Part shown: positions 10,668-25,644 of the stretch, piece after piece
How the letters are laid out: every line of letters starts with the position of its first letter
How positions within the stretch are numbered: the stretch's first letter is position 1
NCBI RefSeq assembly: GCF_900104635.1
Contig: NZ_FNWC01000007.1
Span: forward strand, 965,420-1,029,419
Source of the DNA: Coprococcus phoceensis
GTDB taxonomy: Bacteria > Bacillota > Clostridia > Lachnospirales > Lachnospiraceae
Direction of reading: 5' to 3'
Length of the DNA stretch: 64,000 bases
Made by a program: the position numbers and the translations under genes
Notes under the pieces: model-generated
The model's database searches: none
Told to the model about the DNA's origin: nothing
What the model saw: only the letters and a program-made list of their open reading frames with translations

Positions 10668-12752
10668 TTATCCCATATAATCTAAAAGTTTCTTTACAAT
10701 CTGCTGCGGAAGCCTTTCCAGATCCTCTGCATTGATACAGGCATTTCCATAAATTTTTCGGATATCTTCCTGATCCGTTCCAATCGCTGCTACAAGCAGT
10801 GTAATCTGTTTCTGTTTCAACCGCTTCTGTACGTTCTGCAAATCTTCTCTTGCCACTTTTCCGCCATATCCTTGTGCATTCGGAAGCCCATCACAGAAAA
10901 AAATCAAAATTTTCATCTTCTCCGTTCTTTTTGCCATTTTTTCTGCCATGTAAAGAAGCGCTGCTCCGTCCCTATTAGCTCCACTGGTTTCCATATCTAA
11001 AATCCGATACTTTCCTTCTTTCTTTTCTTCAAACTCCAAATAAGAATGCAAACACACGATTTCCTCCTGCCTTCTACCTGTCTGTTCCGTCCCTGTACAA
11101 TGTCCATTTACACAGATGGGTATACCAAGTATTTGTGCAAACTCCACGACACAAAGGGAAGTCAAAACCGAAGTTTCCCACCGCTTGTTATCTATGGAGC
11201 CAGACTGATCCAATAAAAATCCAATCGCTGTATCCATATTTCTGGAAGGAATTTTGGTCTTAAAAATTCTTTTTTCAGGATTCCACAGATGTGCCATGTC
11301 CAATCCTTTTCCCATATGCTGTTCTCGCAGAATATAGGTTTTCTTCCTTTTTAGAACTGGTAGCAGATCCTGCTTCATTTTCGTTTGGATATGTTTTATT
11401 TGCGGTTTAAGATTTCTGTGTTTTTGATATGCCGCTTGCGAAATGATTTCTTTTCGGAAAATATGCTTTTTGATTTCCTGGTTCACAGGTGTAAACTCCG
11501 TATTTTCTAAAATCTCTTTCAAACGCTCCCGCATCCATTCCTCATATCTCTTTTCCCGTGCTTCTCTTTTTAATTCCAGACAGATGTTTTGAAGTTCTCT
11601 TCCAATATCAATTATCTTTACCGTTTCTTGCTGCAATTCAGAAAGTAAGGGCTCTGTTTTTTCTTCTGTCAGGCTTTCCTGCTCTTTTGTTGCACTTTCT
11701 CCTTCCATTTGAACGGATTGTATTTCTTCTGAAACAGTATGTTTCAGTTCTCCTCCATTCCAAAGAACATCCGAAGCTTCCTTTCGCTCCATGCGGATTT
11801 CCCTGCAGGAAGGTTCTTCCGAGTATTGCGGCAGATCTTCTTTCCACTCATCAAAAGTCTGTTTTAATACGTTTTCTTTGTTTTCTCCTGCCGATTTTAT
11901 TTTTCTTTCCATGCCCTCCGCTTCTTCTAAAAACAAAGGCCACAACTTCAATAAAATCTGATTTGTTGCAAGATACCTTGTGCTTTCCCCCATATCAGCA
12001 ATTGCTTTCGAAAGAACCGGAATACAGTTTCTAAGCAGTTCCATATATTCTGTAACTTCTCCGTCCCACACGTTGACCTTGTGGGTAAACATATATTGCA
12101 CCAACAAAAGTAACATAATCTTTAGTTTTGATTTCTCCTGTACTATCTGGCTTTTCAGACTGGAAATCTGCTCCATATTCCTCTTACGATTTTGCAAAAT
12201 TCCCTGCCTGATACTGCCCGGGAATCTTCTGCACATCTGTTCTTCAATAAAGGCATCTTCTAGATATCCATGCAGCCTTCCGGCTGTTTGCAGATAAATT
12301 CCTAAAAGAACCGCATCTTTCTTTTGGAAACCCTCTTTCATACTTTGTAAAAATTGGGTTTCCTGCTCCGTTTCCGGTATAGGCCAGGCTGGATATAAAA
12401 TCCCATTTGCAATTCCATCTATATATTTCCGTCTCAGATAGATACTGCTGTAATTCTGATGTCCGCATTCATGTCCTTCTACACCTATCAGACTTTTACT
12501 TCTCAAATCCAAAGTCGGAAAACTTTGTGTAAGCATATTCATAGTATTGATATATATATAGCGCCCTTCAAAATAACCGGCTCTGTGATCCGTTGCATCG
12601 GAATAAAATCGGATCTGTGCATCATGCTTATCTGTAATCTCTTTTCCAATCCGTTGCACTAACCTTAAAAATTGAGGAGAAAAAAATACTTCCATGTCCC
12701 GTAGCAAACGCTTTTCTGTCTGCCTGCTATTTCTTATTCTTTCGCTTCTCAT
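10668..12752 (-). CDS. HEXXH metallopeptidase-like / VWA-domain protein, MoxR partner
   Basis: ATG 12752 follows GAGGAAAGGAATC; the upstream in-frame Met would overlap the moxR stop. The 694-residue protein has an N-terminal zincin-like motif HECGH at residues 94-98, with a preceding strand resembling CobT/DUF2201-type domains. A Glu-rich linker follows around residues 330-400. Near residue 500 begins a VWA domain with a MIDAS motif DQSGS (after AIGFLL), then TSGANRDGAALLYMAEKM and ILIFFCDGLPN. In known systems VWA proteins are co-factors of MoxR AAA+ ATPases, which remodel or insert metal into targets. The adjacent upstream moxR supports that pairing. Whether the HECGH site is catalytic is untested. 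Confidence 0.85.
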   Translation of the reverse strand: MRSERIRNSRQTEKRLLRDMEVFFSPQFLRLVQRIGKEITDKHDAQIRFYSDATDHRAGYFEGRYIYINTMNMLTQSFPTLDLRSKSLIGVEGHECGHQNYSSIYLRRKYIDGIANGILYPAWPIPETEQETQFLQSMKEGFQKKDAVLLGIYLQTAGRLHGYLEDAFIEEQMCRRFPGSIRQGILQNRKRNMEQISSLKSQIVQEKSKLKIMLLLLVQYMFTHKVNVWDGEVTEYMELLRNCIPVLSKAIADMGESTRYLATNQILLKLWPLFLEEAEGMERKIKSAGENKENVLKQTFDEWKEDLPQYSEEPSCREIRMERKEASDVLWNGGELKHTVSEEIQSVQMEGESATKEQESLTEEKTEPLLSELQQETVKIIDIGRELQNICLELKREAREKRYEEWMRERLKEILENTEFTPVNQEIKKHIFRKEIISQAAYQKHRNLKPQIKHIQTKMKQDLLPVLKRKKTYILREQHMGKGLDMAHLWNPEKRIFKTKIPSRNMDTAIGFLLDQSGSIDNKRWETSVLTSLCVVEFAQILGIPICVNGHCTGTEQTGRRQEEIVCLHSYLEFEEKKEGKYRILDMETSGANRDGAALLYMAEKMAKRTEKMKILIFFCDGLPNAQGYGGKVAREDLQNVQKRLKQKQITLLVAAIGTDQEDIRKIYGNACINAEDLERLPQQIVKKLLDYMG

Positions 12753-12766
12753 ACAGATTCCTTTCC

Positions 12767-14554
12767 TCACGCTACATAAATCTCCATACAGACCTGCCGG
12801 AGCAGATTCCTGTCTTCTTCATCAGAAGCAAGCTTGGATAATACCGTATCTTCTGCAGCCTTTACAAGATTTTGGGTGCGCATATATTCATATACCCAGT
12901 TTTCATATTCCCTGTAGCCACAAAGTCCGGCTTTTCCAAATTCTTCTTTTACGACTGCATCCAGTCGTTTCATTACCTTTGCCATCTGTTTTAAAACTTC
13001 CATATCTTTGCAGCCTGTCCGAAACATGGCACGTTCTGCCAACTGCTGCTCTGTTAAGTCTTTGCGATGCTGTACCTTATTCATTCTGGATACTACGGAA
13101 AAATCAAATTCCCTATTTGCAACATAATTTAGATTGGTCGTGATGATGATAATTGCATTTGGGTGTCGTTCTACGACTTCCCCGTACAGAAGGTCCAATT
13201 TCCTGGAGTCATCTAATAACCGGTTAAGTTTTCCAAGTGTCCCCGGCTCTACAATAAGAGAAGCCTCCATAATTTCAATCACCGAAGGCATTCGGCAGCC
13301 TTTTATGATTTCCGATTCTTGCATTACAAAATCCCCTTCGTTTTTTGCTTTCTGGTAACCGGACTGGTACACTGCATCTAACAGTTCTCGAAAGGCTTCG
13401 CTTTTGCTAATCCCTTCTTTTCTTGTATAGGCTACATCTTCCAATACCTGCATCGGATCTGCAACAAATTCCTGTAAAGAAGGAAACTTCATATGGTCTT
13501 CGGCCTTTTTCCTGGAATTTGGATAAATCCCTGCCACCAGTGTACTTTCATCGGTTTCCGGTCCACAGTTTAAAGCAAAATAAGGAACACCTAAAATCTG
13601 GGCAATCATCTGTGCATCTGTCGTTTTTCCTGTTCCTGCATTTCCGGTGATCATAAATTTCCGGAAAGGTGACTCTACAATTGCAGAAAGAATATCCTGC
13701 GCATATTCCCCAACTTTCATATCTCCTGGAAACTGTGGAATACGATCCTCATAATCCTTTGGAAACGACCAGTGCTGCCCGTAAATCTTCTTTAATTCTT
13801 TTAACGTCCATTCTCTTGCTTTCTTCGTTTCTCCAAAAATCTGAAATTTACCTTTAATCGCATCGTTTGGTGCGTATAGTTCGCTTTCGATTGCAAGTTT
13901 CGAAAGTTGTTCCATACCATTCTTTCCAAGCTGACTTTTCTCCAACGGAATTCCTTCATTGTTGAAATCCTGTACATTTTCTACTCTCCGGTACAGGTTA
14001 TCACAACAAAGAAAAGCAGCTTTTAATGCAAGTTTTCCATTTTTCCAGCCTTCTTTCATTTGCTGCATGAATAAAATAAAATTTTGAGCAAACTCCAGGT
14101 TATATAATGCTTCTTTCTTTTCCAGACTGACATAAATAAGCATTGCCAGAACTTCCTCTCCGTCACTGACGTTTCTTTCAACAAAATCCAGAGCTTTATA
14201 TGTTTGTTTTTCTGTTTTACAGACACCGCGTATTTTTGCACTGATCGGATTATAAACCAATGCGTGGCGTTGATTTCCCTTTACATATTCCATACAATAG
14301 AAGTTCAACAAATCATAATTTCCTTTTTGAAATCCAAGGGCTCCTTCTGTTTGCTTCAAATAAATCCCTGCAATATTGAGCATTGCCCTCAATGTAGGGG
14401 GATGCAGTGTTGCCTGTCTTCCCTGATTATACTGGGAAAGCCATTCCACCATAGTAGTAGTTTTTCGTAATCCTTCTTTTTGTAAAAACTGGCTGAATGG
14501 TTCCGGCATTTGTTCCTGAAATGTCCAGGTATCAAATAATTTTATCTCTGCCAT
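12767..14554 (-). CDS. MoxR-type AAA+ ATPase
   Basis: ATG 14554 follows AAGGAGAGAAA, giving 595 residues. The first ~290 residues are a helical domain I cannot assign. The AAA+ module follows: Walker A GNAGTGKT at about 304-311, sensor-1 region IIIITTNLNYV, and arginine-finger region FSVVSRMNKVQHR. The Walker B position reads VIEIMEA, so the usual acidic pair is changed (see findings). The stop lies 14 bases before the VWA start, as expected for a MoxR-VWA pair. It is the first gene of the block and is preceded by a terminator at 14611-14644. Confidence 0.88.
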   Translation of the reverse strand: MAEIKLFDTWTFQEQMPEPFSQFLQKEGLRKTTTMVEWLSQYNQGRQATLHPPTLRAMLNIAGIYLKQTEGALGFQKGNYDLLNFYCMEYVKGNQRHALVYNPISAKIRGVCKTEKQTYKALDFVERNVSDGEEVLAMLIYVSLEKKEALYNLEFAQNFILFMQQMKEGWKNGKLALKAAFLCCDNLYRRVENVQDFNNEGIPLEKSQLGKNGMEQLSKLAIESELYAPNDAIKGKFQIFGETKKAREWTLKELKKIYGQHWSFPKDYEDRIPQFPGDMKVGEYAQDILSAIVESPFRKFMITGNAGTGKTTDAQMIAQILGVPYFALNCGPETDESTLVAGIYPNSRKKAEDHMKFPSLQEFVADPMQVLEDVAYTRKEGISKSEAFRELLDAVYQSGYQKAKNEGDFVMQESEIIKGCRMPSVIEIMEASLIVEPGTLGKLNRLLDDSRKLDLLYGEVVERHPNAIIIITTNLNYVANREFDFSVVSRMNKVQHRKDLTEQQLAERAMFRTGCKDMEVLKQMAKVMKRLDAVVKEEFGKAGLCGYREYENWVYEYMRTQNLVKAAEDTVLSKLASDEEDRNLLRQVCMEIYVA

Positions 14555-14610
14555 TTTCTCTCCTTTCTGTCTGCAAATTTTAGGTATGTTCCTCCTTTCT
14601 ACACGCAAAA

Positions 14611-14644
14611 AAGACAAGGTATTTGTCTTTCTATACCTTGTCTT
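14611..14644 (-). terminator. Intrinsic terminator upstream of the MoxR block
   Basis: A perfect 12-bp stem (AAGACAAGGTAT with ATACCTTGTCTT) is followed on the minus strand by a T-run. It stops transcription from the 68-residue gene, or could act as an attenuator in the moxR leader. The rest of 14645-14926 shows only a small dyad at 14718-14737. Confidence 0.75.
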
Positions 14645-14926
14645 AAACTTATTCCTATATTTTATTGCAGACTATGCCAAAATAAATCTTCTGCTACCAT
14701 GCAGAATAAAAATTAATTGCACAAATTTGCTTGTGCATAAATGAATACAACTTTATCCTAGCATTAGATAGAGAAACTGTCAACAACAGTTTTAGGATCA
14801 TAAGAAATTTATTGTTTTTTGAAATTATTGTTCTTCATACGAAGCGATTCCTTACACAAAATATAAGAAACCGAAAGTAAATAGATCCTTTCAATGCAAA
14901 AAATTTCTCTAATATAGATAGTATTC

Positions 14927-15133
14927 TTATTTCTCCGTATTCCTAATATATTGAATTTTAGGACGTTTTAACTGGATAAATCTGGCATTTGGTGCTTCTA
15001 ATGGATCGCATTCTTTTCCATTTTTATCTACGTATGCCTGTGTTTTTATAATAACTGAAACGCCATTTCCACGGCTACTTTCCATTTCTTTAAAAGCTTT
15101 TTTTAAATTCTTCTTTGCGATACGTTTATTCAT
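14927..15133 (-). CDS. Small basic hypothetical protein (68 aa)
   Basis: ATG 15133 has a strong AAAAGGAGGAATTCC site. The product is Lys/Arg-rich (RIAKKNLKKAFKEMESSRGN) with a short beta segment (VSVIIKTQAYVDKNGK). No family recognised; it could bind nucleic acid. It stands alone, with its own terminator at 14611-14644. Confidence 0.5.
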   Translation of the reverse strand: MNKRIAKKNLKKAFKEMESSRGNGVSVIIKTQAYVDKNGKECDPLEAPNARFIQLKRPKIQYIRNTEK

Positions 15134-15414
15134 GGAATTCCTCCTTTTTTGCTTCCGTCTTTAATAACTGATATTATACTAAATTTTACAACTATATGCA
15201 ATCTTGTACACAATTTTTTAACGTAAAATCGGACTATTTTCTACTGAATAAGCCTTCTCTTTCAACAGTAAAGAAGATTTGTTTCTTCCCCCAACTCTAC
15301 TTGTGATTTTACTTTATTTTCGTCTATATCTTTTCTAGTACTAAACAGCTTTAGAATTTTATTCAAAGAGTATGCGTAGTTATCCATACCATACAATAAG
15401 GGAACAGCCAGAGC

Positions 15415-15570
15415 ACAGCTCACCTTACTATTTTCAAAATTCATATATTTTGTACTTTAATGCTTTCTTATTCATCTAAATATTTGCTATTTTCTTTTTC
15501 AGGAATTTTTAGCCCTTCCATTGCATGTTCTACTGATCATCCCCTCTTTTCCATAAGGTTTCAATTGAAC
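15415..15570 (-). pseudogene. Relic of an Rpn-type gene 3' end
   Basis: About 155 bases resemble 22270-22440, including the flank TTCAAAATTCATATATTTTG and the C-terminal coding pattern PEKE/W..EHAMEGLKIPEKE seen intact near 22.4 kb. Several substitutions and a shortened segment leave no open frame. The ORF at 15262-15444 starts inside this relic's flank and has no support of its own. Apart from this relic and the inverted repeat, 15134-15727 shows nothing else. Confidence 0.55.
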
Positions 15571-15638
15571 GTAAAATCAAATCTTCTCATATGAAAATAG
15601 TACTTCTCATTCTTAGTTTTATGAATGTTAAAGGATAT

Positions 15639-15687
15639 TTAGGAGTTATCCGGTATCGAAATGATATTAGATAATACCTTATTATCC
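15639..15687. repeat. Left 49-bp inverted repeat of the cassette
   Basis: A perfect reverse complement of 20461-20509. Within it is the dyad GATAATACCTTATTATC (7-bp arms, 3-base centre). The start (TTATCCGGTATCGAA) is echoed just outside at 15682-15698 (TTATCCCATATCGAA). It lies 41 bp upstream of the first cassette gene. Interpretation: a recombination site for inversion of the 4.8-kb segment; the alternative is a duplicated promoter/leader. Confidence 0.9.
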
Positions 15688-15727
15688 CATATCGAAGTAC
15701 AAAGAGAATAATGTAGGAGAATATATT

Positions 15728-16861
15728 TTGAATGCAATAATTTTAGCTGCTGGACATAGTTCCCGTATGATTGAGGAAAAACAATATACCCATAAGCCTT
15801 TATTACCAATTCTTGGGCTTCCCAATATTGAGAGAACAATTCTAATTTTAAATGACTTTGGAATAAATGATATTGTTATAATTGCAGGAATATATGCAGA
15901 TCAATATACATTTTTACAAGAAAAATATGGTTGTACCATCGTATCTGATCCCAATTGTTCAGTATCTACGCTCTATGGGATATACAGTATTGTTAATATT
16001 ATAGGTGATACTTTCATCATTGAAGGTGATGTTGTTTTGGCAGAGAATATTTTTATTAACAAACCTTATAGCTATTATTATGTAATGAAATATTTAAATC
16101 CGGAATTTGACGCTTGGAAACCTATTCTTGATAAAAATGGGCGAATAATTTCCTTTGAAATTGGTTGCTTTTCAGAACCATGCATTTTTGGAGTATCTTT
16201 TTGGAGTAAATCTGATGCAGAAATTTTCAAAAAAATTATTGCTGATATCAGTACTCCTGAAAATTTATCTAATAGCGAAAACTTCTGGGATGACTATTTT
16301 AATGATTTTTTGGACGAAATCCAAATTCACACTTTAGAAATACCCAATTATGTTGCATCAGAAATGAACAATATAATCGAATATGATATGGCCATAACAA
16401 TGTGCCAAAAGTATTATTCTAATCCAAAACAATATTTTATAAACTGGCATAATAATAAAAATGAGTATTCGTATATAATGAATACATCTCAAGCACTAAG
16501 TTATACCCAAAAACTTTTGGAAGAGTATATCTATAAGCATCCTGACGAAAACTTTAGTTTAACTAAACCATCATACTTTGAAAATAATGAATATCCTTAT
16601 ATCATACAAAAAGAAAAGAAAAGCATTGGGTTTATAGATATAGCTATTGAAAAAAATTTTTTTCTGCTGAGAAGAATTTATCTTGATAAATCTTATCGAA
16701 GACAACGATTAGGAACTCAAATTTTAGAAAATATAATTACATTTTCTAAACTCACAAACAAGGAATTACGGGTAAACGTTTATGATGAAGAGGCAGAAAA
16801 ATTTTATAAACGTCTTGGATTTAGAAAAAATTTTACAAATTACGTAATAAGGAGACAATGA
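15728..16861 (+). CDS. Nucleotidyltransferase-GNAT acetyltransferase fusion
   Basis: Start is TTG 15728 (GGAGA eight bases upstream), because the translated MNAIILAAGHSSRM is the canonical opening of sugar/phosphocholine nucleotidyltransferases: LAAG..SRM binds the NTP, and TFIIEGDVVL supplies a metal-binding Asp. This LicC-like domain covers residues ~1-230. Residues ~250-377 form a GNAT fold (LRRIYLDKSYRRQRLGTQIL for acetyl-CoA, then NVYDEEAEKFYKRLGFRK). Such fusions probably activate a small molecule as an NDP/CDP derivative and acylate a product. It overlaps the next gene by 4 bases. Codon use is very AT-rich compared with the flanks. Confidence 0.82.
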   Translation: MNAIILAAGHSSRMIEEKQYTHKPLLPILGLPNIERTILILNDFGINDIVIIAGIYADQYTFLQEKYGCTIVSDPNCSVSTLYGIYSIVNIIGDTFIIEGDVVLAENIFINKPYSYYYVMKYLNPEFDAWKPILDKNGRIISFEIGCFSEPCIFGVSFWSKSDAEIFKKIIADISTPENLSNSENFWDDYFNDFLDEIQIHTLEIPNYVASEMNNIIEYDMAITMCQKYYSNPKQYFINWHNNKNEYSYIMNTSQALSYTQKLLEEYIYKHPDENFSLTKPSYFENNEYPYIIQKEKKSIGFIDIAIEKNFFLLRRIYLDKSYRRQRLGTQILENIITFSKLTNKELRVNVYDEEAEKFYKRLGFRKNFTNYVIRRQ

Positions 16862-17916
16862 GTATGGATATAATTCAAGAGTGTTTAGCTTATTTTAAGA
16901 ATATAGATATAAATTTCGATTTGCTAATAATAGCTGACACACAAAATAAAACTACAAAGAACAATAACTATATTGTTCATACTGATGAAAGTGAGTTTTT
17001 TTCTAGAAGAGAATTTGCTGAAATTGCTTCGACATTATTTTATATTTTTGGTTATGCCAAAGTTTTTTACTCAGAATTGGATTTCATAAAATTTGTGATG
17101 GATGAGCATCCCTCATCCACAGAATGTTACATATATAATTTTAGCAGAGACGGAATTGCTGAGGGAAAAAAATCATTAATCCCTGCTTTTTGCGATTTAT
17201 GCGGTCTTAAATATACTGGATCAAATGCTTTTACCATATCCTTATTGAGAAATAAATGGATTTTTACACAGGTACTTTCTAATATGGGGATATTAACACC
17301 AAAGTCTGTTCTTTATACATTTAATAATCATAATATATTAGAACCTTTTTTGGATACGACAATACTTTTAAAGAATATTCATGAATCAGCAAGTATAGGC
17401 TTGCTTACAGACAATAAAATATATTTAACAAAAGAAAATTTGAAAACAGTTGATATGACACTACAACGGATGAACACTAAACAACTACTCATACAAGAAT
17501 ATATTAGCGGCCTAGAATGTGAAGTTTTAGTAATACAGTTTAAGGGAAAGTATTATGCACTTGAGCCAGTGGAAATTGTTATAAATGGTAATGATTTTTT
17601 AGATTCCTTAACATCAAACCTATATAACTATTCGTTTAGAAAACTATCCGATAGATTGAGTCCAACAGTAATAGAACAAATTAAAAAGCAAGCAGTTAAA
17701 GCTGCACAAATTTTAAGCATTAAAGACTATGCGAGATTTGATTTCCGTATAGAAAAAGACCAGCCATATCTTATCGATATAGCTGGAACACCATATACTA
17801 TAAAACATAGCTCGGTAGCGTTTCTGTTTGAGAATATAATGCATTTAGATTATAAAGATATTTATAAGACAATAATGGCGTGTTCTTTTTCAAATTATGA
17901 TATACTTCAATCATAA
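16858..17916 (+). CDS. ATP-grasp ligase (D-Ala-D-Ala ligase-like)
   Basis: A 352-residue protein starting by a 4-base overlap with the upstream gene (an alternative ATG is at 16864). ATP-grasp features are visible: FCDLCGLKYTGSNAFTISLLRNKW (the PYTG/K segment of Ddl-like ligases), LLIQEYISGLECEVLV (ATP-binding hinge and metal region), then DYARFDFRIEKDQPYLIDIAG as the Mg-binding end. It should join a carboxylate to an amine using ATP. With the upstream nucleotidyltransferase-GNAT it suggests a two-protein pathway for a modified amino-acid or peptide metabolite. It is convergent with the large ATPase gene and overlaps its end by 10 bases. Confidence 0.82.
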   Translation: MSMDIIQECLAYFKNIDINFDLLIIADTQNKTTKNNNYIVHTDESEFFSRREFAEIASTLFYIFGYAKVFYSELDFIKFVMDEHPSSTECYIYNFSRDGIAEGKKSLIPAFCDLCGLKYTGSNAFTISLLRNKWIFTQVLSNMGILTPKSVLYTFNNHNILEPFLDTTILLKNIHESASIGLLTDNKIYLTKENLKTVDMTLQRMNTKQLLIQEYISGLECEVLVIQFKGKYYALEPVEIVINGNDFLDSLTSNLYNYSFRKLSDRLSPTVIEQIKKQAVKAAQILSIKDYARFDFRIEKDQPYLIDIAGTPYTIKHSSVAFLFENIMHLDYKDIYKTIMACSFSNYDILQS

Positions 17917-20423
17917 GATGTATATTGCAAATCAGATAGCATAAGCCCCCGGCAGAAAAAAGAAGCCAATTCGCTAGATCGTCGTTTCAAAGGTACTAGA
18001 TTATTACAAAAATCATATCCATCTAATATTTGACGATTCAAAATAATCTCTTTTAAAGCAAGAAGTTTCTTATCCCAAAAAACTTCTTGCTTTTGAAATA
18101 ATGATGGAACAAAATCACCTAATAAATTAGTAATTTCTGTTGCACTCTCCCATTTTTCATCTAATATATATCTATATACTTCGAACCAAGCAAAATAATA
18201 ACGATAAAAGTCATCCACATCATCATCCTCAATATTTGACACATCATCGCAATCCATTAGATGCTCCAAATATTTTTTGAATTTGAGATATTCTGAAATA
18301 TTACCGTAATAAAGACTTAGCGAACATATATTAGTGAGAATAACAAATTCTGTTGCACATGAGATACGTTGTAATTGTTTCCTTAATTTTTTGACGGTTT
18401 TCTTTGCATATCTAAAGCAATATTTTTTTGTATGGGATTGTTCATACCTAAGAAAATCTGCTATTATCATGTTATTTAGTATTTTCTGTGGGTATGGTAT
18501 TGATATTTCATTTTCTATAGAAACTTGCATAGCTTTTCTGCATGCCTGTATAGCTTCATTATATTTTTGTATAACTATGTCTGTTCCTGCTTCACAGATT
18601 AATGTGATACAATATTCATCCCAGATCTGATTGTCATAAAAATACTTTTTTGCTTTGTCATAATAAATATTACATTGCGTCTGGTTTACAAACAGAAACG
18701 CTTTCCGATTAAATACATTCTCCATATATTTAGCAATGCTTTTACTAGATTGAGAAGTTTGTATATTCCTGCTAAGTGAAAGGCTAAGATCATAGATCCG
18801 TTTAAATAACTCTGTGTTGTTCAAAACATCTAAGATATAGGGTGCAATATCATAGATAATCCTAAGTTTCAAAACAGTTTCATCAACGATAGGCATCTCT
18901 ATAGGATATTGTAATAGGACTAAATATATAGGTTCTTCAGCATACTGAACGAGCTGACTTAATATTTGTTTCAATTGTAAATACCAAGGTTTATAATTCC
19001 TATACATAAAATGGAAATAAGCTCTTGCCAGTTCTGCCTTTAAGGGAATCTCGAAATAATCTTTTTGTAAATTATGGTACATCCCATTAAGTTTATCATA
19101 ATCCGATCCCCCTTCACGTAGGGTATTGTAAAATGATTTTATTGCTTCAAAATCATCATAGTAATAGGAATCTTTTTCTTTTCCAATCAACCTTTCAATT
19201 TTTTTAATTTGTTCCAAATTATTAAAACTAAGTGCTTCTGAATAGGAAAGTATAAGAAGGGCAAAAATGTCATCTTTCAAATATCCATTGTATGCCCATA
19301 AATAGTATGCTCTTAAAAAATATTGATCTTGTTCCTTGTTACTATAATAATTGTAATAATCTAAATATCTTTCTTTATTCTTATCATTTAGTTCTTTCTT
19401 CAGAATTTTTTGTATTTCATCACAAGCGAAAGAATAAAAGTTCAACGAGTTTTTTTTCAGCAACGCTTGCTTTTGAGCTAGATATAGACTCTCTCGAACA
19501 GTGTTTGTTTCTTTATGTGTTATGCTTGCAATTTCTTGACTACCAAAGTTTTTTAGGCTAATTGAGGAAGACAAAATGATGTCTTCCATATCATATTCAT
19601 TTACATTTCTGGTTAGACCTTTCTTTTTAAGTTCACCCAATCTGTATGTAACCACTGAATCTAAGGCTCTAAAAAAATCAACATTTTGCTCTACTAAATC
19701 TATATACAGAAAATCGACTAATTTTAAATTAGACGCACAAATTTTTTTGATTTGTTTAATCTTTTCCTCTATGTCCTTTTTCTTTACAATTATTTTATGT
19801 TTTTCAGTTAGATATTGTAAAATATCATTTTCATCATAGTCTTCCAATACATTTTTTTCGATTGTAGAACAAGATAGAAAATCCTTTATGCATGAATCAT
19901 CAACATCACTTATGAGAAAATATAGATGATGTCTAAAGGTACTTTCAAGAGTGGTTATATTCTTCATTAGTATTTCAATCAGATATTTTACTTTATTATC
20001 TAATTTAGAGTAATCGGGTAGGCAAATTAATAAATCAGAAGAAAATCTTTTTTTAAGAAGATTAGATATTTGATTAAATTGGCTATCATTTTTTTTAGTT
20101 GATACCGATGCCGCTATATCAACTCCAATCCCCCAGCGTATTGGTAATGAAATAGTAGTTTCAATATTATCTACGGAACTCTTAGAAGAATTTTCGTATA
20201 AAGATAATTTGTCTCCTTCAGCAATATATACTTGCAATTTGTTATTTTGTCTATTTTTGCTATGTATTCTATTGATAACTTCAAATACTACATGTGATTT
20301 TCCTGATCCATGATTACCTAAAATAATGGTAGCCTCTGAGGCTGATGCAGTAATATATTCTTGAGTCAATTTCTCTATTAACTTATTTCTACCTTCTAAA
20401 TTTTTATACTTATTTTCTTTCAT
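17907..20423 (-). CDS. Large P-loop ATPase with helical-repeat C-terminus
   Basis: An 838-residue protein. Residues ~1-300 form an AAA/STAND-like NTPase: Walker A LGNHGSGKSHVVF near 36-48, and Walker B LYFLISDVDDS near 160. The remaining ~500 residues are helices with the spacing of TPR-like repeats (for example ALSFNNLEQIKKIERL, AIQACRKAMQVS). There is no HTH or effector domain I recognise. STAND-like proteins are sensors or defence switches, but nothing here fixes a function. Start ATG 20423 lies 38 bp inside the right inverted repeat and is served by a promoter just outside it, so it is the gene in the 'on' position in this sequence. Confidence 0.7.
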   Translation of the reverse strand: MKENKYKNLEGRNKLIEKLTQEYITASASEATIILGNHGSGKSHVVFEVINRIHSKNRQNNKLQVYIAEGDKLSLYENSSKSSVDNIETTISLPIRWGIGVDIAASVSTKKNDSQFNQISNLLKKRFSSDLLICLPDYSKLDNKVKYLIEILMKNITTLESTFRHHLYFLISDVDDSCIKDFLSCSTIEKNVLEDYDENDILQYLTEKHKIIVKKKDIEEKIKQIKKICASNLKLVDFLYIDLVEQNVDFFRALDSVVTYRLGELKKKGLTRNVNEYDMEDIILSSSISLKNFGSQEIASITHKETNTVRESLYLAQKQALLKKNSLNFYSFACDEIQKILKKELNDKNKERYLDYYNYYSNKEQDQYFLRAYYLWAYNGYLKDDIFALLILSYSEALSFNNLEQIKKIERLIGKEKDSYYYDDFEAIKSFYNTLREGGSDYDKLNGMYHNLQKDYFEIPLKAELARAYFHFMYRNYKPWYLQLKQILSQLVQYAEEPIYLVLLQYPIEMPIVDETVLKLRIIYDIAPYILDVLNNTELFKRIYDLSLSLSRNIQTSQSSKSIAKYMENVFNRKAFLFVNQTQCNIYYDKAKKYFYDNQIWDEYCITLICEAGTDIVIQKYNEAIQACRKAMQVSIENEISIPYPQKILNNMIIADFLRYEQSHTKKYCFRYAKKTVKKLRKQLQRISCATEFVILTNICSLSLYYGNISEYLKFKKYLEHLMDCDDVSNIEDDDVDDFYRYYFAWFEVYRYILDEKWESATEITNLLGDFVPSLFQKQEVFWDKKLLALKEIILNRQILDGYDFCNNLVPLKRRSSELASFFCRGLMLSDLQYTSYD

Positions 20424-20460
20424 ATCTTTATTACAAATAGACCTTCAATAAAATAATATA

Positions 20461-20509
20461 GGATAATAAGGTATTATCTAATATCATTTCGATACCGGAT
20501 AACTCCTAA
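20461..20509. repeat. Right 49-bp inverted repeat of the cassette
   Basis: Perfect reverse complement of 15639-15687. It lies 38 bp upstream of the ATPase start. The segment between the repeats (15688-20460) would be reversed by recombination at these sites. Confidence 0.9.
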
Positions 20510-20520
20510 TTATCATTTTA

Positions 20521-20549
20521 ATTATAACAAATACTTACTTTTTTTTCCA
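20521..20549 (-). promoter_or_regulatory. Extended -10 promoter reading into the invertible cassette
   Basis: On the minus strand TGTTATAAT is a consensus extended -10 (TATAAT at 20521-20526). A -35-like TGGAAA sits 17 bases upstream (20544-20549). The predicted start point falls at the edge of the right inverted repeat, so the promoter itself lies outside the segment. No comparable promoter is visible outside the left repeat. Confidence 0.6.
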
Positions 20550-20656
20550 TATTTTTCTTCATAATCTCCAGATTAGCTTTTTAAATAATACAGATAAATC
20601 CCTATTTTACCTGTACAATAAATATAACCATTACCCAATCTGCTTTTTGTGCACAC

Positions 20657-20685
20657 AAAAAAGACCACCTTAAATCAAGCTGATC
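20657..20685 (-). terminator. Terminator of the tyrosine recombinase gene
   Basis: Stem GATCAGCTT with AAGGTGGTC (one mismatch, one wobble) followed by a T6 run on the minus strand, 37 bases past the recombinase stop. It insulates the cassette promoter at 20521-20549 from the recombinase transcript. Confidence 0.6.
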
Positions 20686-20721
20686 GTAATCTATAGCTGT
20701 AATGAATTAAAAGAAATATTT

Positions 20722-21642
20722 TTATGCTACTCTAAGTATATTCATGTATTTTCTGGGATGCATCTCTCTTAAAATCTCAGCCTGCTTTTTTGCTGCAATA
20801 TGAATATATATCTGAGTAGTTTTTATTGAACTATGTCCTAGAATTTGTTGTACACAACTAACATCAACGCCTTCTTCTATGAGATATGTAGCAAATGAAT
20901 GACGGAACATATGGGGAGTTATGTTTCTTTCAATACCTGCTAATTTTGTATACTTTTTGAGCATTAACCTAATGGAATACTCCGTATATCTATTCCCCCG
21001 GCTGTTTACAAAGAAAAATCCACTTTTCTTAATTGCTTCTGAATTATGTTTGTAATATTTTTTTAGAATATTCAAAATCTCAGCGGAAGCAATCTGAATA
21101 TATCTTTCCTTACCGCCTTTTCCCATGATCTTGATTAGACCTGTATTCAAATTTATACAGTCTATTTTTATATTTGATACTTCATACACTCTGGCTCCTG
21201 TGGCAAACAAAGTTTCTATTACAGATATATCTCTCAGCCAGTATTTGTACATCTTTTCATTACTATTTCTATGCTCATGCGAATACATATAGTTCAAGAG
21301 AGATTCAATTTCTTCACGCGGGATTATTTTAGGTAAAATTGTCGTTTCCTTGAATTTTACTTTGATTTTTCTAAACGGATTATCATCGATAATTTCGCAC
21401 TCTTCCAAATAATTATAATATGCTTTGATGGATGCAATTTTACGTTTTATTGTTTTCTGCTTGTATTTTTTATGTAATTCCACTATATAGCCTTCTATTT
21501 TGCTTTTTTCTGGGACATCTTCCTGTGCAAACTCAAAAAACTGTCTTAAATCAATTCTGTATGCCTTCAGCGTATTCCAATCCAATTCTTTCCTATATTC
21601 GCAATATTCAAGATACTTCTTTACTTGATCTTTATAATTCAT
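20722..21642 (-). CDS. Tyrosine recombinase (XerC/D-like)
   Basis: ATG 21642 follows GGAGGACAGTAG and is preferred over the upstream Met. The 306-residue protein has an N-terminal SAM-like core-binding domain (YLEYCEYRKELDWNTLKAYR) and the full catalytic set: Arg in TGARVYEVSNIK, Lys in GKGGKERYI, HMFRHSFATYL (His and Arg), LGHSSIKTTQIYIH (His and the Tyr nucleophile). Its length fits Xer-like and phase-variation recombinases more than large ICE integrases. It lies 213 bp from the right inverted repeat of the cassette and reads toward it, making it the obvious candidate invertase. Confidence 0.93.
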   Translation of the reverse strand: MNYKDQVKKYLEYCEYRKELDWNTLKAYRIDLRQFFEFAQEDVPEKSKIEGYIVELHKKYKQKTIKRKIASIKAYYNYLEECEIIDDNPFRKIKVKFKETTILPKIIPREEIESLLNYMYSHEHRNSNEKMYKYWLRDISVIETLFATGARVYEVSNIKIDCINLNTGLIKIMGKGGKERYIQIASAEILNILKKYYKHNSEAIKKSGFFFVNSRGNRYTEYSIRLMLKKYTKLAGIERNITPHMFRHSFATYLIEEGVDVSCVQQILGHSSIKTTQIYIHIAAKKQAEILREMHPRKYMNILRVA

Positions 21643-21948
21643 TCTACTGTCCTCCATGCCTTTTTCGGTAGTGTAGCATATTTCTTCACAAGATACATTC
21701 GATATTCCCTATGTTTCTCATTGGAACTAAGGAATTTTCTCTTCATTTCAGTGCACAAAAAACGCATGCGTAGAACCTATTCTGCATCTCCTTCATGCTT
21801 TACTTTTTATTGAAATAGCACAACGTATCTTTATGACATCTAAAAAGCAACTCACCATTTTGCAAGCAAAACACTTATGGTATGTAAGATACTGTGATAT
21901 CTCCTATTATTTGTATCATATTTTTTGTAACTGTTATATATAAAAGAC

Positions 21949-21983
21949 GGGCAGAAAGCTGATTTTACTCAAGCTTTCTGCCC
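21949..21983 (-). terminator. Terminator of the Rpn fragment
   Basis: Perfect 12-bp arms GGGCAGAAAGCT and AGCTTTCTGCCC with an 11-base loop, then GTCTTTTAT on the minus strand, 20 bases after the stop at 22003. The remaining bases between 21643 and 22002 show nothing else. Confidence 0.7.
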
Positions 21984-22002
21984 ACACTCATCATAAAAAA
22001 AC

Positions 22003-22212
22003 CTATATTAATTCATCTGAATATTTCGTTTTTTCTTCTTCAGGAATCTTCAGGCTTTCCATTGCCTGTTCTACTGACCACCCCATTGTTTCCATAAGGT
22101 TTCTAATTGAAAGAAGAATTCCCTTCTCAATTCCTTGTTTAATTCCTTTTTCAATTCCCTTCTGAATTCCTTTTTCTTCAACGCCTTTACTCAGATTACA
22201 CATAATAGGCAC
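22003..22212 (-). pseudogene. Duplicated C-terminal fragment of an Rpn-type protein
   Basis: The 69-residue frame repeats the last ~60 residues of the adjacent full gene (MCNLSKGVEEKGIQKG, then LLSIRNLMETMGWSVEQAME) with few changes. It has an expanded KGIEKGIKQGIEKGI stretch from a 12-bp tandem unit. It lacks the nuclease domain, so it is a relic or a repeat reservoir of the gene at 22312-23259 rather than an enzyme. Confidence 0.7.
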
Positions 22213-22311
22213 CTCTTTCTAATGTCTTTGCGTTTCAGACAAACCATGCGATAAGGTGAACAACAATAATACTGCTCACCTCTATTTTCAAAATTTATAT
22301 ATTTTGTACTT

Positions 22312-23259
22312 TTACATTTTTTTCAATTCATCTAAATACTTGCTCTTTTCTTCTTCGGGAATTTTCAGGCCTTCCATTGCCTGTTCTACCGACCACCCCA
22401 TTGTTTCCATAAGGTTTCTAATTGAAAGAAGAATTCCCTTCTGAATTCCTTTTTCTTCAACGCCTTTACTCAGATTACACATAGTAGACACCTCTCTTTC
22501 TAATGTCTTTGTCATTTCAATTGAAAAATCATTCTGTAATATCTCTTTCTTTTCCTTTACTTCACGATCCGAAGAAAGCAAAACTTCCAGTAACTTTAAG
22601 ATACCTGAAGCATTTTCATCATCAGAGTCCCCTAAACATATCATAATTGCCGTTAGTAAATCATAATTTTCTTTTCTTTCCGAACAACTACCAATTAACT
22701 GTTCTTCTGTAATAGAATATCTGTTTATACTATTTTCCCGATATTTCGGTGGATTCATACAAATCCAAATGCTATAGACTTTCTTTATCTTCTCATAATG
22801 TGCATCTGAAAATTCAACACCATACTGCGAAGATATCAATCTGCTGCAATAATAAATTCCTCTGCTTATAATCGGGTAGCCTGGATAAAAATCATTTTGC
22901 GCTTCAATATTTATGATCAATCGAATTTTTTCTTTCGACACCGGAGCCTTCGCACAAAAGCGAATATCGTATGTAACCACCCCTTCATAAATAGAAGCAT
23001 CTTCGGTTGCTCCATTTTGTATTTGTTCTTCTGATACCTGTTCATCTATATTTACGGGTACGTCTGCAACATCTGCCTCTCCTTCTATATAGTTCTCTAC
23101 AATTTCCTGAATCTCACAATCTCTATATTCCTCTATACAACTTTTCATAATCCATGCCAAGATCACCTTATTTGCCAGAAGGCGTTTACATGCTGCATCA
23201 TAGGAGGCTTTCTCTCCTGCAGAACTAATATTCTTTGCCAGTATATTTTCAACTTTCAA
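22312..23259 (-). CDS. Rpn/PD-(D/E)XK family transposase-like nuclease
   Basis: Start is probably TTG 23259, in the context AGGTGAATATAGG; 315 residues. Family landmarks are DAACKRLLANKVILAWIMKS, YEGVVTYDIRFCAK, LIINIEAQNDFYPGYPIISR (the D...E-x-Q of the PD-(D/E)XK core) and YSIWICMNPP. The C-terminal helix LLSIRNLMETMGWSVEQAME is duplicated at 22003-22212 and in decayed form near 15.5 kb. Members are multicopy in Lachnospiraceae and act in DNA cleavage/recombination in the best-studied relatives (RpnA). It encodes no separate partner. Confidence 0.85.
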   Translation of the reverse strand: MKVENILAKNISSAGEKASYDAACKRLLANKVILAWIMKSCIEEYRDCEIQEIVENYIEGEADVADVPVNIDEQVSEEQIQNGATEDASIYEGVVTYDIRFCAKAPVSKEKIRLIINIEAQNDFYPGYPIISRGIYYCSRLISSQYGVEFSDAHYEKIKKVYSIWICMNPPKYRENSINRYSITEEQLIGSCSERKENYDLLTAIMICLGDSDDENASGILKLLEVLLSSDREVKEKKEILQNDFSIEMTKTLEREVSTMCNLSKGVEEKGIQKGILLSIRNLMETMGWSVEQAMEGLKIPEEEKSKYLDELKKM

Positions 23260-23430
23260 CCTATATTCACCTGCCTATTCCTCTTTTTCTTATTTTATCA
23301 CACACGAAAAAAAGATGCCACTTATTTTTCTCACCAGATCATCCTCCTTCCGTATGATAAGGAAGAATTGTTTATGTTCTTTTCGCATTAAATCTCTTTC
23401 TGCTTTTATAAGCAGTTTACCACTATTTTC

Positions 23431-25644
23431 TTATGCCGCTTCATTCTTATCCGAAACCTCCGCAAATGCTTTTTTTAACCGATAAGATAACAACGTATTT
23501 CTTTTTTTGGATCTTCCCGCCCGTATTGCCTGGGAAAATGCCTGTTTGCTTCCCACAAGAATGACTTTTCTTTTTGCCCTTGTAATTGCGGTATAATATA
23601 GATTTCGCTTTAAGGTATGCCGCCGAAAACATGACAAAATCGGAATGATGACTACCGGATACTCGGAGCCTTGTCCCTTATGTGCAGTAATTGCATACGC
23701 ATGAACAAGGTTCCAAGATTCTCCTTCCTGATATCGCATAACCCGCTCTTCTCCAAAATCTACTTCCATATATTTCTTACCGCTCACCTTTCCTATTTTT
23801 CGTACAATCCCGATATCTCCGTTGGAAATTTCATCTTCATTTTTCGTCTGCATCACTTTATCCTGTATACGAAAAATTTTGTTTCCATTTTTGATTTCCT
23901 GTTGTCCTCTCTGGTAAGGATTGATTCTGTCTTTGATTTTTAGATTCAAAGCATTTGCGCTTACCTTCGTATCTTCCCTTAAAGGTGTTAATACCTGAAC
24001 TGCATTTACATTTTTCCCTTGCAACTTCCACTCCATATCAAAAAGTTTCATAATCTTTTTCGCGGCTTCTTCATCATCATGTGCTGCTACAAAGGAAAAA
24101 CTGTTATCATATACCAGATTTTGTTTGCCACAGTTGATTTTTATCGCATTCTCCAAAATAGTAGGGTTTTCCTGCCGGAAACATTGATCTAAAACAGTAA
24201 CTGGAATGACTCTGGAGTCAATGAGTTCTTTAAATACATTTCCAGGCCCTACTGATTCCAGCTGGTCTTTGTCTCCCACAAAAACAATCCGACTTCCGGT
24301 CTTTATTTTCATCATCAGACTTGTAAACAGATGCATATCTACCATGCTGCACTCATCAATGATGATCAAATCATCGCAAAGCATTTCTCCAGCATTCCAT
24401 GCTCCTTCACCTTCTGCTCCTGTAAGTCCGATACTTTTATGTATCGTCAGTGCCGGATACCCCGTTGCTTCATACATTCTCTGTCGCGCTCTTCCGGTAG
24501 GTGCTGCCAATAAAATCATACTATCCATATTCAATTTTTCCTGGATCATAACAATAAAACGCAGCAGGGTTGTTTTCCCACTTCCAGGTCCTCCTGTTAT
24601 AATGGAAATTGAATTTTGAAAAACCATTTCAATCCCTTTTCTTTGCTTTTCCGCTAATTTTATGTGTTCTTTGGCTTCCAAATTGGAAATCCATTTCTCT
24701 ACATCATACCTTTTTATCGGATACTTGCTTAGCGTGGCAAGTTGTATAACAGCTTTTTGTTCTGACTCATAATTTTTCTTAGAATAAATCTTTGTATAAC
24801 TACAGATTAGTTCTTTATCATCTTTGATCAGAGAATTGCCAGCATCACGAATTTTCCGTTCTGTTACACTGCCTTTTTTATCTCCACGCACCAACAACGG
24901 CTTGGCTCTTGTTAAAATGTCAGACACCTCTAAATAGAGATGCCCTTCCCCTTCTGCTTCTTTTAAAACATATAATATAGCTGCTTTTATTCGTAAAGGA
25001 TTATCTGCCTGAAAATGTTTTACTTTCCTTGCTATCGGATCCACTGTTTTAAATCCAAACCCTTCTATCTCACACAACCGGAATGGATCCTTTTTAATAA
25101 TGCTGACTGCCTTGTGTCCAAAATGTTCCTGGATTTTTTCTATCTTCTTTGGTGTTACTCCCGCAGAAGACAGAAAAATTGAAAGCTGACGGATATTTTC
25201 ACTTTGATAATAGCCATCTAAAATCTGCTCCAGTTTTTTTTGTGTAATTCCAGGAATTTCAAGCAATCGTTCCGGGCATTCTTCAAAAACATAGAAGGTA
25301 TTTTTCCCAAATCGTTCTACAACCCTTTCTGCGATAACAGGCCCAATTCCTTTCACCAATCCTGAAGAAAGGTACGCTTTTACCCCCTCTTCTGTTGTCG
25401 GCATTTGAATTTGGAAAGATGCCACATAATACTGTTTTCCATATTTCTCTGATTCTTTCCACTGTCCTTTTAAAGAGATACCAATCCCTTCGTTTCTGGG
25501 CAATTCACAGCCAACTGCCACAAACTGCCTTTTTCCAATTCCATTCTTCCCTTCAGGAATGTTCTCCTCTGTTTCATATACTGCCACAGTATATCCGTTT
25601 TCCTGATTATAATAAATGGAAGAAGCATATCTGCACTCTAACAA
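23431..25644 (-). CDS. recD2: RecD2-like ATP-dependent DNA helicase (SF1B)
   Basis: Start TTG 25644 sits behind AAGGAGGTAGTGAC; 737 residues, the normal RecD2 size. After an OB-like N-terminus come helix-hairpin-helix segments (YLSSGLVKGIGPVIAERVVERFG, PGITQKKLEQIL), then helicase motifs: Walker A GGPGSGKTTLL, DECSMVDMHL (motif II), GDKDQLESVGPG (III) and VHAYAITAHKGQGSEYP with YYTAITRAKRKV (V/VI). RecD2 unwinds 5'-3' on single-stranded tails independently of RecBC. Its place after an SSB and a membrane protein suggests it belongs to the element's DNA transfer or maintenance set rather than host repair. Confidence 0.93.
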   Translation of the reverse strand: MLECRYASSIYYNQENGYTVAVYETEENIPEGKNGIGKRQFVAVGCELPRNEGIGISLKGQWKESEKYGKQYYVASFQIQMPTTEEGVKAYLSSGLVKGIGPVIAERVVERFGKNTFYVFEECPERLLEIPGITQKKLEQILDGYYQSENIRQLSIFLSSAGVTPKKIEKIQEHFGHKAVSIIKKDPFRLCEIEGFGFKTVDPIARKVKHFQADNPLRIKAAILYVLKEAEGEGHLYLEVSDILTRAKPLLVRGDKKGSVTERKIRDAGNSLIKDDKELICSYTKIYSKKNYESEQKAVIQLATLSKYPIKRYDVEKWISNLEAKEHIKLAEKQRKGIEMVFQNSISIITGGPGSGKTTLLRFIVMIQEKLNMDSMILLAAPTGRARQRMYEATGYPALTIHKSIGLTGAEGEGAWNAGEMLCDDLIIIDECSMVDMHLFTSLMMKIKTGSRIVFVGDKDQLESVGPGNVFKELIDSRVIPVTVLDQCFRQENPTILENAIKINCGKQNLVYDNSFSFVAAHDDEEAAKKIMKLFDMEWKLQGKNVNAVQVLTPLREDTKVSANALNLKIKDRINPYQRGQQEIKNGNKIFRIQDKVMQTKNEDEISNGDIGIVRKIGKVSGKKYMEVDFGEERVMRYQEGESWNLVHAYAITAHKGQGSEYPVVIIPILSCFRRHTLKRNLYYTAITRAKRKVILVGSKQAFSQAIRAGRSKKRNTLLSYRLKKAFAEVSDKNEAA

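Follow-up and report, generated by a model that had tools for sequence, protein, structure and literature searches.

A recombinase-linked gene cassette in Coprococcus phoceensis that probably inverts between a STAND-type sensor module and a biosynthetic module

We analysed a stretch of 64,000 nucleotides of Coprococcus phoceensis DNA (Lachnospiraceae; assembly GCF_900104635.1, contig NZ_FNWC01000007.1, forward-strand positions 965,420 to 1,029,419), hereafter called the window, in which a three-gene segment lies between inverted repeats next to a gene for a tyrosine recombinase. The best explanation of this segment, to which we assign a probability of roughly 85%, is a recombinase-driven invertible cassette of the either/or type, so that the genes expressed in a given cell are probably those for an immune-sensor-like protein or those for biosynthetic enzymes. 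The features are as follows, numbered from the first nucleotide of the window.

15639..15687, plus strand: left 49-bp arm of the inverted repeat (repeat comparison)
15670..15686, plus strand: left recombination core GATAATACCTTATTATC, the proposed crossover site (core pattern shared with relatives)
15728..16861, plus strand: LicC/MobA-like nucleotidyltransferase fused to a GNAT acetyltransferase, biosynthetic arm (Pfam NTP_transf_3 and Acetyltransf_7)
16858..17916, plus strand: ATP-grasp ligase with a D-Ala-D-Ala-ligase-like C-terminus, biosynthetic arm (Pfam Dala_Dala_lig_C)
17907..20423, minus strand: STAND-type NTPase with helical repeats, 838 aa, sensor arm (Pfam and fold match)
20461..20509, minus strand: right 49-bp arm of the inverted repeat (repeat comparison)
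20462..20478, minus strand: right recombination core, an inverted copy of 15670-15686 (pattern comparison)
20521..20549, minus strand: predicted sigma-A promoter, TGGAAA-17-TATAAT with a TG extension, just outside the right arm (10/12 consensus matches)
20722..21657, minus strand: XerC/D-like tyrosine recombinase, the proposed cassette invertase (Pfam Phage_integrase and active-site motifs)

As reported in the initial annotation, the arms are exact reverse complements over 49 nt, and it was found that the complementarity extends to 63 nt at 95% identity (15630-15692 with 20456-20518); the next inverted pair listed within 12000-24000 was 33 nt at 73%. Each arm contains, close to its inner end, the core GATAATACCTTATTATC, which is nearly palindromic around an asymmetric middle of 5 bp. 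This core was absent from the earlier description and is the portion of the arm that is conserved in relatives. The consensus core across relatives is a near-palindromic 17-bp GATAAT-N5-RTTATC, from which the cores of the paired loci described below show one departure in each of two columns. A pattern search of the organism's own genome (3.6 Mb, 7 contigs) placed GATAATACCTTATTATC at these two positions only, and therefore the exact arm likewise has no other copy there; when the same genome was searched at the DNA level, no further arm copy was found, with just 4 of 100 first-look candidates scored. The sequence GATAATNNNNNATTATC occurs twice in the window compared to 0.01 expected by shuffling, and GATAAT-N5-ATTATC occurs three times in the 3.6-Mb genome, the third occurrence being unpaired and having another middle.

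A second element resembling GATAA-N7-TTATC is present at 20498-20514. It is separated from the right core by 19 bp on the outer side, falls for the most part inside the arm, and has a degenerate counterpart on the left side of the cassette; it may be an accessory binding site. A tRNA search found none in the window.

The three genes point inward from both ends and overlap by 10 bp at the middle (17907-17916), in agreement with the initial annotation. Relatives of this arrangement were found by a pattern-based scan of species genomes that was based on an alignment of 34 NTPase proteins (A1); 25 stretches matched, and 11 loci encoded a relative. Exact inverted copies of the 17-bp core were present at both ends in 11/11 of the cassette loci that have both ends on the contig, namely eight loci of the scan, the window, and the streptococcal loci L070 and L071. 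Loci L040, L042, and L044 have one site each, and their contigs end before the second (L042 is on the same contig as L049 and L056). The relatives are distant, with 31-48% protein identity in the best-matching stretch and NTPase identity down to 31% over partial length, and they share a layout in which a STAND/TPR-type protein gene converges on a gene for an ATP-grasp enzyme. The ATP-grasp enzyme is the partner of the NTPase in all 11 loci and is broken in L071. The nucleotidyltransferase is an addition in the window that is missing from the 3.4-3.7-kb forms and is replaced by a second ATP-grasp gene in L043. In L071 (Streptococcus), where the recombinase match is also in two pieces, both sites and the TPR gene remain.

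The orientation of the cassette relative to the recombinase was then compared among loci. The recombinase-adjacent arm is of the STAND/TPR type in five loci (the window, L039, L040, L045, and L057) and biosynthetic in eight (L038, L043, L044, L046, L047, L055, L070, and L071). The initial annotation had named one identical orientation in all relatives among the outcomes that would speak against a switch, and what was found is a mixture of the two. It had also proposed a search of assemblies for the opposite orientation, which was found between Streptococcus species at the same locus. When S. azizii (L045) was aligned with S. gallinaceus (L046), the flank on the recombinase side matched in reverse at 89% and the other flank in reverse at 90%, whereas the 3.4-kb cassette aligned forward at 78%, and the alignments changed over within the arms. 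The orientation of L070 is the same as that of L046, and comparison of L045 with L070 likewise gave reversed flanks and a forward cassette. On this alignment evidence, L045 differs from L046 and L070 by inversion of the cassette between the predicted sites of a single locus, and it is whole coding modules, rather than a promoter, that trade places, as had been suggested. The streptococcal cassette is less conserved (78% DNA identity) than its flanks (85-90%) between L045 and L046 or L070, as if the cassette genes evolve or recombine faster than the flanks.

A recombinase tree of 12 of these 13 loci (L071, with its broken genes, was left out, and L037 and L041 carry no recombinase on the contig) contained well-supported branches that force at least four changes of orientation, and the orientation label was not clustered on the tree, with 310/500 shuffles as low. 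The ATP-grasp tree was not used in the orientation argument because it has two long branches (L055 and L057).

The ends of assembled contigs also point to flipping. The contig of L037 (JAETON010000066.1) is 4836 bp long and consists exactly of the cassette with a complete 17-bp core at either end. A 17-bp repeat should break an assembly only if both orientations are present, and L037 may therefore indicate flipping; this break is read as the presence of both orientations from a contig that does not show the full repeat length beyond its ends. The longest contig was 4780-4930 bp for 39 of the 120 NTPase homologs listed (of 182 found), with none in the 150 bp below this range and three in the 150 bp above, compared to 1/119 of the recombinase homologs listed. 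Most of the 39 peak contigs were from the source labelled lgn, which we take to be Logan, assembled with k=31, and six were labelled ena alone (counted by eye). Among 57 recombinase matches, the contig started within 210 nt on the 3′ side in nine and on the 5′ side in one, as judged by eye. Of the 44 recombinase loci examined (see below), 13 have a contig end no more than 210 nt from the match on its 3′ side; nine of these were fetched because they had already been seen to end there. A core lies in between in 12 of the 13, in three of them only as a variant with T in place of the final C.

The recombinase lies outside one end of the cassette, as annotated, although the gap between its open reading frame (ORF) and the arm is 212 bp rather than the 213 bp given earlier. 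Its description as catalytically complete is borne out: R156, K180, H249, R252, H275, and Y284, which we take to have the catalytic roles, are in the usual motifs, and the protein aligns to XerD (1a0p). Assignment as the chromosome-dimer resolvase XerC or XerD was rejected because the scores were below the NCBIfam equivalog cut-offs (237.1 vs 329.6 bits for XerD and 232.8 vs 335.15 bits for XerC). Members of this recombinase family (E of 1e-75 or better) were found in 52/397 sampled genomes of the bacterial family, the window's own included. The recombinase family is also held by 1068 phage records, all at <60% identity, and two IMG/VR scans gave no relative. In the recombinase tree, the window protein is closest to that of L055 (67%), the cargo of which is quite different, and therefore cargo seems to be exchanged between recombinase lineages. 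The linked recombinase is the presumed agent of the inversion.

Promoter-like sequences on the flanks were scored with promoter matrices. The right flank of the window scored 11.6, a value reached in 0/500 shuffles, whereas the best score on the left flank was 4.2, reached in 397/500. Because the promoter-like sequence reads into the STAND gene, we predict that in the present orientation the STAND/TPR gene is ON and the nucleotidyltransferase-GNAT and ATP-grasp genes are OFF. The same scoring was applied to 25 of the 27 paired loci described below (L037 and L041 were left out because the sequence beyond their cassettes is missing or too short): a score of at least 9 was found on one side in 12 cassettes, on both sides in 0, and on neither side in 13. 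The window and 11/24 other cassettes thus combine facing gene sets with a one-sided score of at least 9, and L046 just misses this threshold with 8.9. The pattern among the 25 cassettes fits a single outside promoter, short of proof.

A GC-rich hairpin was seen by eye between the recombinase gene and the site in L038, L039, L040, and L044; no terminator was found between the recombinase gene and the right arm in the window.

We propose that the XerC/D-like recombinase would bind the GATAAT-N5-RTTATC core in each arm and join the two inverted cores, flipping the 4.8-kb block between them. A fixed promoter outside one arm would read inward, so that the adjacent module would be expressed, and the module away from the promoter would be silent or read only in antisense. 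Sequence comparison establishes the sites, their conserved convergent layout, and the reversal between species at the sites; the recombinase is the likely actor, and the outside promoter is, with less confidence, the likely chooser. The single promoter would select between an immune-sensor-like program and a biosynthetic (surface or small-molecule) program, perhaps as an armed-versus-modified or a sender-versus-receiver switch.

Several observations weigh against this explanation. The flipping of the window copy is deduced from relatives, with the two orientations having been found between Streptococcus species. The contig-length peak is ambiguous for the lgn contigs because a 49-bp repeat would break k=31 contigs without any flipping, and only 6/39 peak contigs are labelled ena alone. 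The rule of exclusive promoters is not significant by itself, with about 1.4 double cases expected (12/50 sides passing) and 0 seen; L070 scores higher on the side opposite to that of L045 and L046 despite being at the same locus, and the single-promoter rule across the family is weak. The cassette is rare: the NTPase profile was found in 2/397 genomes of the bacterial family and the ATP-grasp enzyme also in 2/397, whereas the streptococcal ATP-grasp enzyme was found in 4/247 Streptococcus genomes. Among the recombinase loci examined, 28/44 are without an exact core pair, in part because contigs stop at the site. The functions of both arms are inferred from domain similarity alone.

One alternative is that the cassette has inverted during evolution but is frozen here, or that regulation does not depend on its orientation because each module is driven by its own promoter inside its arm. 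This would agree with the fact that inversion is known from relatives and has not been seen in this genome, that promoter-like sequences are common in AT-rich DNA (56 found compared to 45.7 expected), and that 13/25 cassettes are without a strong promoter-like sequence on either outside flank. We consider it unlikely, given that the recombinase and both cores look intact, that contigs of relatives stop at the site, and that the one strong promoter-like sequence of the window is outside one arm only. It is very unlikely that the segment is instead a mobile element (a transposon, an integron-like cassette, or an excisable island) with incidental inverted-repeat ends and the recombinase as its integrase. 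The tyrosine type of the recombinase, the different cargo carried by related recombinases, and a degenerate direct repeat of about 78 nt outside the whole unit (15500-15578 and 22041-22119) would suit such an element, but the recombinase lies outside the repeats, and the cassettes of S. azizii and S. gallinaceus are at the same place with similar flanks and are only reversed. Furthermore, the exact core pairs are inverted and none is direct among the 55 loci examined, which argues for inversion and not excision. On the inverted-only site pairs and the recombinase outside the arms, classification as an integron, transposon, or excisable island was rejected.

A duplicated regulatory leader, such as an attenuator or operator present at both ends, its two copies held similar by selection with no inversion, would account for the position of each arm just upstream of a gene start and for a length of 49 bp, which is long for a recombinase site alone. 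This is a highly improbable reading: what is conserved is a 17-bp core next to a recombinase, distant relatives retain exactly inverted pairs of this core and none of the 55 loci has an exact direct pair, the cassette reverses at the core between species, contigs stop at the core, and an Rfam scan of 13000-24000 gave no family at the gathering score. Two known switch types were also considered and rejected. An invertible promoter (inverton) does not describe a segment of 4.8 kb that is almost all coding and in which the best arm-adjacent promoter-like sequence is outside, and a segment of the Mu G type (Gin/Cin/Pin) would have a serine recombinase, whereas the enzyme here is a tyrosine recombinase by its Pfam Phage_integrase match.

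The direct repeat of about 78 nt (82-83% identity) occurs at 15500-15578, 22041-22119, and 22358-22434, with one copy inside the 3′ part of a PDDEXK transposase-like gene (22312-23259). The unit of recombinase plus cassette, preferred here as an invertible switch, may have landed in an array of such transposase-like gene ends.

Within the sensor arm, the 838-aa protein has the character of a STAND NTPase, that is, a P-loop NTPase followed by a helical-repeat sensor, as judged by the domains of homologs, the structural model, and the fold match. Its own Pfam match to AAA_16 is below the cut-off, and 12-14 of the 34 aligned homologs match ATPase_2, AAA_16, or nSTAND_NTPase5 (E ≤ 0.01). The AlphaFold2 model has a mean pLDDT of 83.3. 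Its fold is best matched by 6mfv, in which a STAND protein carries a TPR sensor; the next matches are SAMD9, Avs3, an archaeal ATPase, a chain of the maltose-system regulator (presumably MalT), and NLR proteins; the TM-scores are low (0.1-0.5) for this flexible multi-domain model. The P-loop is close to the N-terminus, and therefore no N-terminal effector was recognised; no effector domain was found among the Pfam matches of the window NTPase and its 34 homologs. PADLOC gave no match for four window proteins, and on these two negative results an Avs-type anti-phage system was rejected. The nearest named homolog among the matches listed is from Mediterraneibacter gnavus and is 97% identical. 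The C-terminus RGLMLSDLQYTSY (17910-17951, minus strand) is nearly invariant in the 34 homologs, which is unusual for a C-terminal tail.

In the biosynthetic arm, residues 2-219 of the nucleotidyltransferase have as their best solved-structure match 1jyk, a CTP:phosphocholine cytidylyltransferase that we take to be LicC (E 2.7e-19), and the ATP-grasp ligase has a weak solved-structure match to 3r23 (E 3.5e-4). Given the phosphocholine cytidylyltransferase match, it is plausible that the biosynthetic pair makes a surface decoration or a small-molecule product.

The recombinase was also followed independently of the NTPase. One of the 57 recombinase matches is the window itself, and 44 of the 56 others were examined (12 were not). 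An exactly inverted core pair, 1.9-6.5 kb apart, was found in 16/44, and no inverted core pair arose in 20 rounds of shuffling of all 44 loci. No exact direct core pair was present among 55 loci examined, a set that leaves out L040, L042, and L044 (one site on each contig). All 27 paired loci of the two sets have the pair in inverted order, with two convergent modules between the sites; 26/27 are convergent by plain ORF calling. The exception is L046, where that calling placed the start of the TPR gene upstream of the core; by its tblastn layout this locus is convergent too. As a control, same-size stretches outside 25 cassettes were convergent in 54/494.

For the cargo, 65 ORFs were clustered, and Pfam searches covered the 34 proteins of A1 and 30 proteins from relatives, of which 28 were cargo. 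A sensor-like protein was recognised in 11 of the 16 paired recombinase loci. The cargo types were as follows.

L057, L106: STAND or AAA protein with TPR
L110, L118: TIR protein with TPR
L104, L113, L136, L143: AAA proteins of about 1100 aa (L143 by BLAST)
L055, L105, L141: cluster of 561-575-aa proteins (sub-threshold TPR in L055)
L055, L057, L105, L106, L110, L112, L115, L118, L141 (nine loci): ATP-grasp enzyme or a BLAST-cluster relative
L104, L141, and by cluster L136, L143: family-2 glycosyltransferase
L104: epimerase
L113: IspD-like cytidylyltransferase and carbamoyltransferase
L142: SHMT-like enzyme

A sub-threshold Mrr-like match was present in two of three scanned AAA proteins of about 1100 aa, and a hexapeptide-repeat protein is on the sensor side of L104. 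The fit is poor in L109, L112, L115, L138, and L142, where one or both arms are unrecognised or odd. The 1100-aa cluster is paired with a cluster of 378-aa glycosyltransferases in 3/3 cases and the 561-aa cluster with ATP-grasp in 3/3, and by this clustering the partner modules are co-inherited. With PADLOC, the TIR proteins of L110 and L118 matched the candidate model PDC-S66 (about 1e-11), and the other 8 of the ten proteins scanned together with them gave no match; in a separate scan, the L057 NTPase weakly matched PDC-M01A (1.2e-5). Two loci have an AAA_15/AAA_21-type ATPase gene and a TOPRIM-like gene near the recombinase (L053:12512-14693 and L057:3578-5672); the L053 AAA protein gave AbiLi/AriA-like PADLOC matches, and the L057 pair was judged by eye. 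In L054, the recombinase gene is between inverted stretches of two flagellin-like genes (by eye), which is not a two-arm cassette.

We offer as a tentative generalisation, held with less than even confidence, that these loci form a widespread class in Lachnospiraceae-like and other Firmicutes. In this class, a cell would choose either a sensor arm (STAND-TPR, TIR-TPR, or large AAA) or a matched biosynthetic arm (ATP-grasp, cytidylyltransferase, glycosyltransferase, epimerase, or carbamoyltransferase), with the pairs co-inherited and never co-expressed. A clone would be split into armed cells and disguised or signalling cells, and the product might be perceived by the sensor of a sister cell.

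Phase variation is mostly viewed as the ON/OFF switching of one surface trait by a flipping promoter. In the phage Mu G, P1 C, and e14 P segments, inverted sites flank two facing gene sets, and inversion picks the set behind an outside promoter; Gin, Cin, and Pin are serine invertases that exchange parts of tail-fibre genes. PinQ is reported to invert the P segment of e14, which is 1797 bp long (PMC12529663). The C. phoceensis cassette resembles these segments in having inverted sites around a coding segment with two facing gene sets, but its recombinase is of the tyrosine type, it encloses complete genes, and its two modules are of unrelated kinds. Invertible promoters such as fimS, those of Bacteroides capsules, and the C. 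difficile switches combine a recombinase and inverted sites with reversible ON/OFF control (PMC12118408). Those are flips of short promoters, whereas here the promoter appears to be fixed and 4.8 kb of coding DNA would flip.

Inversions by PsrA and of hsdS act among hsdS genes and recombine parts of genes. They are examples of DNA inversion within coding DNA of a Firmicute, S. pneumoniae, and PsrA is a tyrosine recombinase (PMC7096588, PMC4948785). In contrast, no gene is cut and no chimera would be formed in the cassette described here. The predicted fold of the 838-aa protein is like that of STAND/NLR-like proteins (the 6mfv STAND-TPR protein, Avs3, and MalT), from which it differs in its lack of a recognised effector domain or PADLOC match and in its location in an invertible cassette. 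The nucleotidyltransferase resembles LicC over the matched residues but is fused to GNAT and paired with an ATP-grasp ligase. A literature search by titles and abstract openings found no description of such a cassette, a statement that holds within that search only.

In these bacteria, entire alternative programs seem to be swapped, one with the build of an innate immune receptor and one resembling a biosynthetic pathway. The switch is defined and testable: a candidate site, an enzyme linked to it, and a promoter prediction are in hand, and the site motif is a simple handle for locating more cassettes. The recombinase is present in about one-eighth of the sampled family genomes (52/397), although an exact pair was found in only 16/44 loci. 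If NLR-type sensors are expressed in part of a clone, alternating with a modification pathway, this would bear on how the cost of such sensors is limited and on subpopulations within gut strains.

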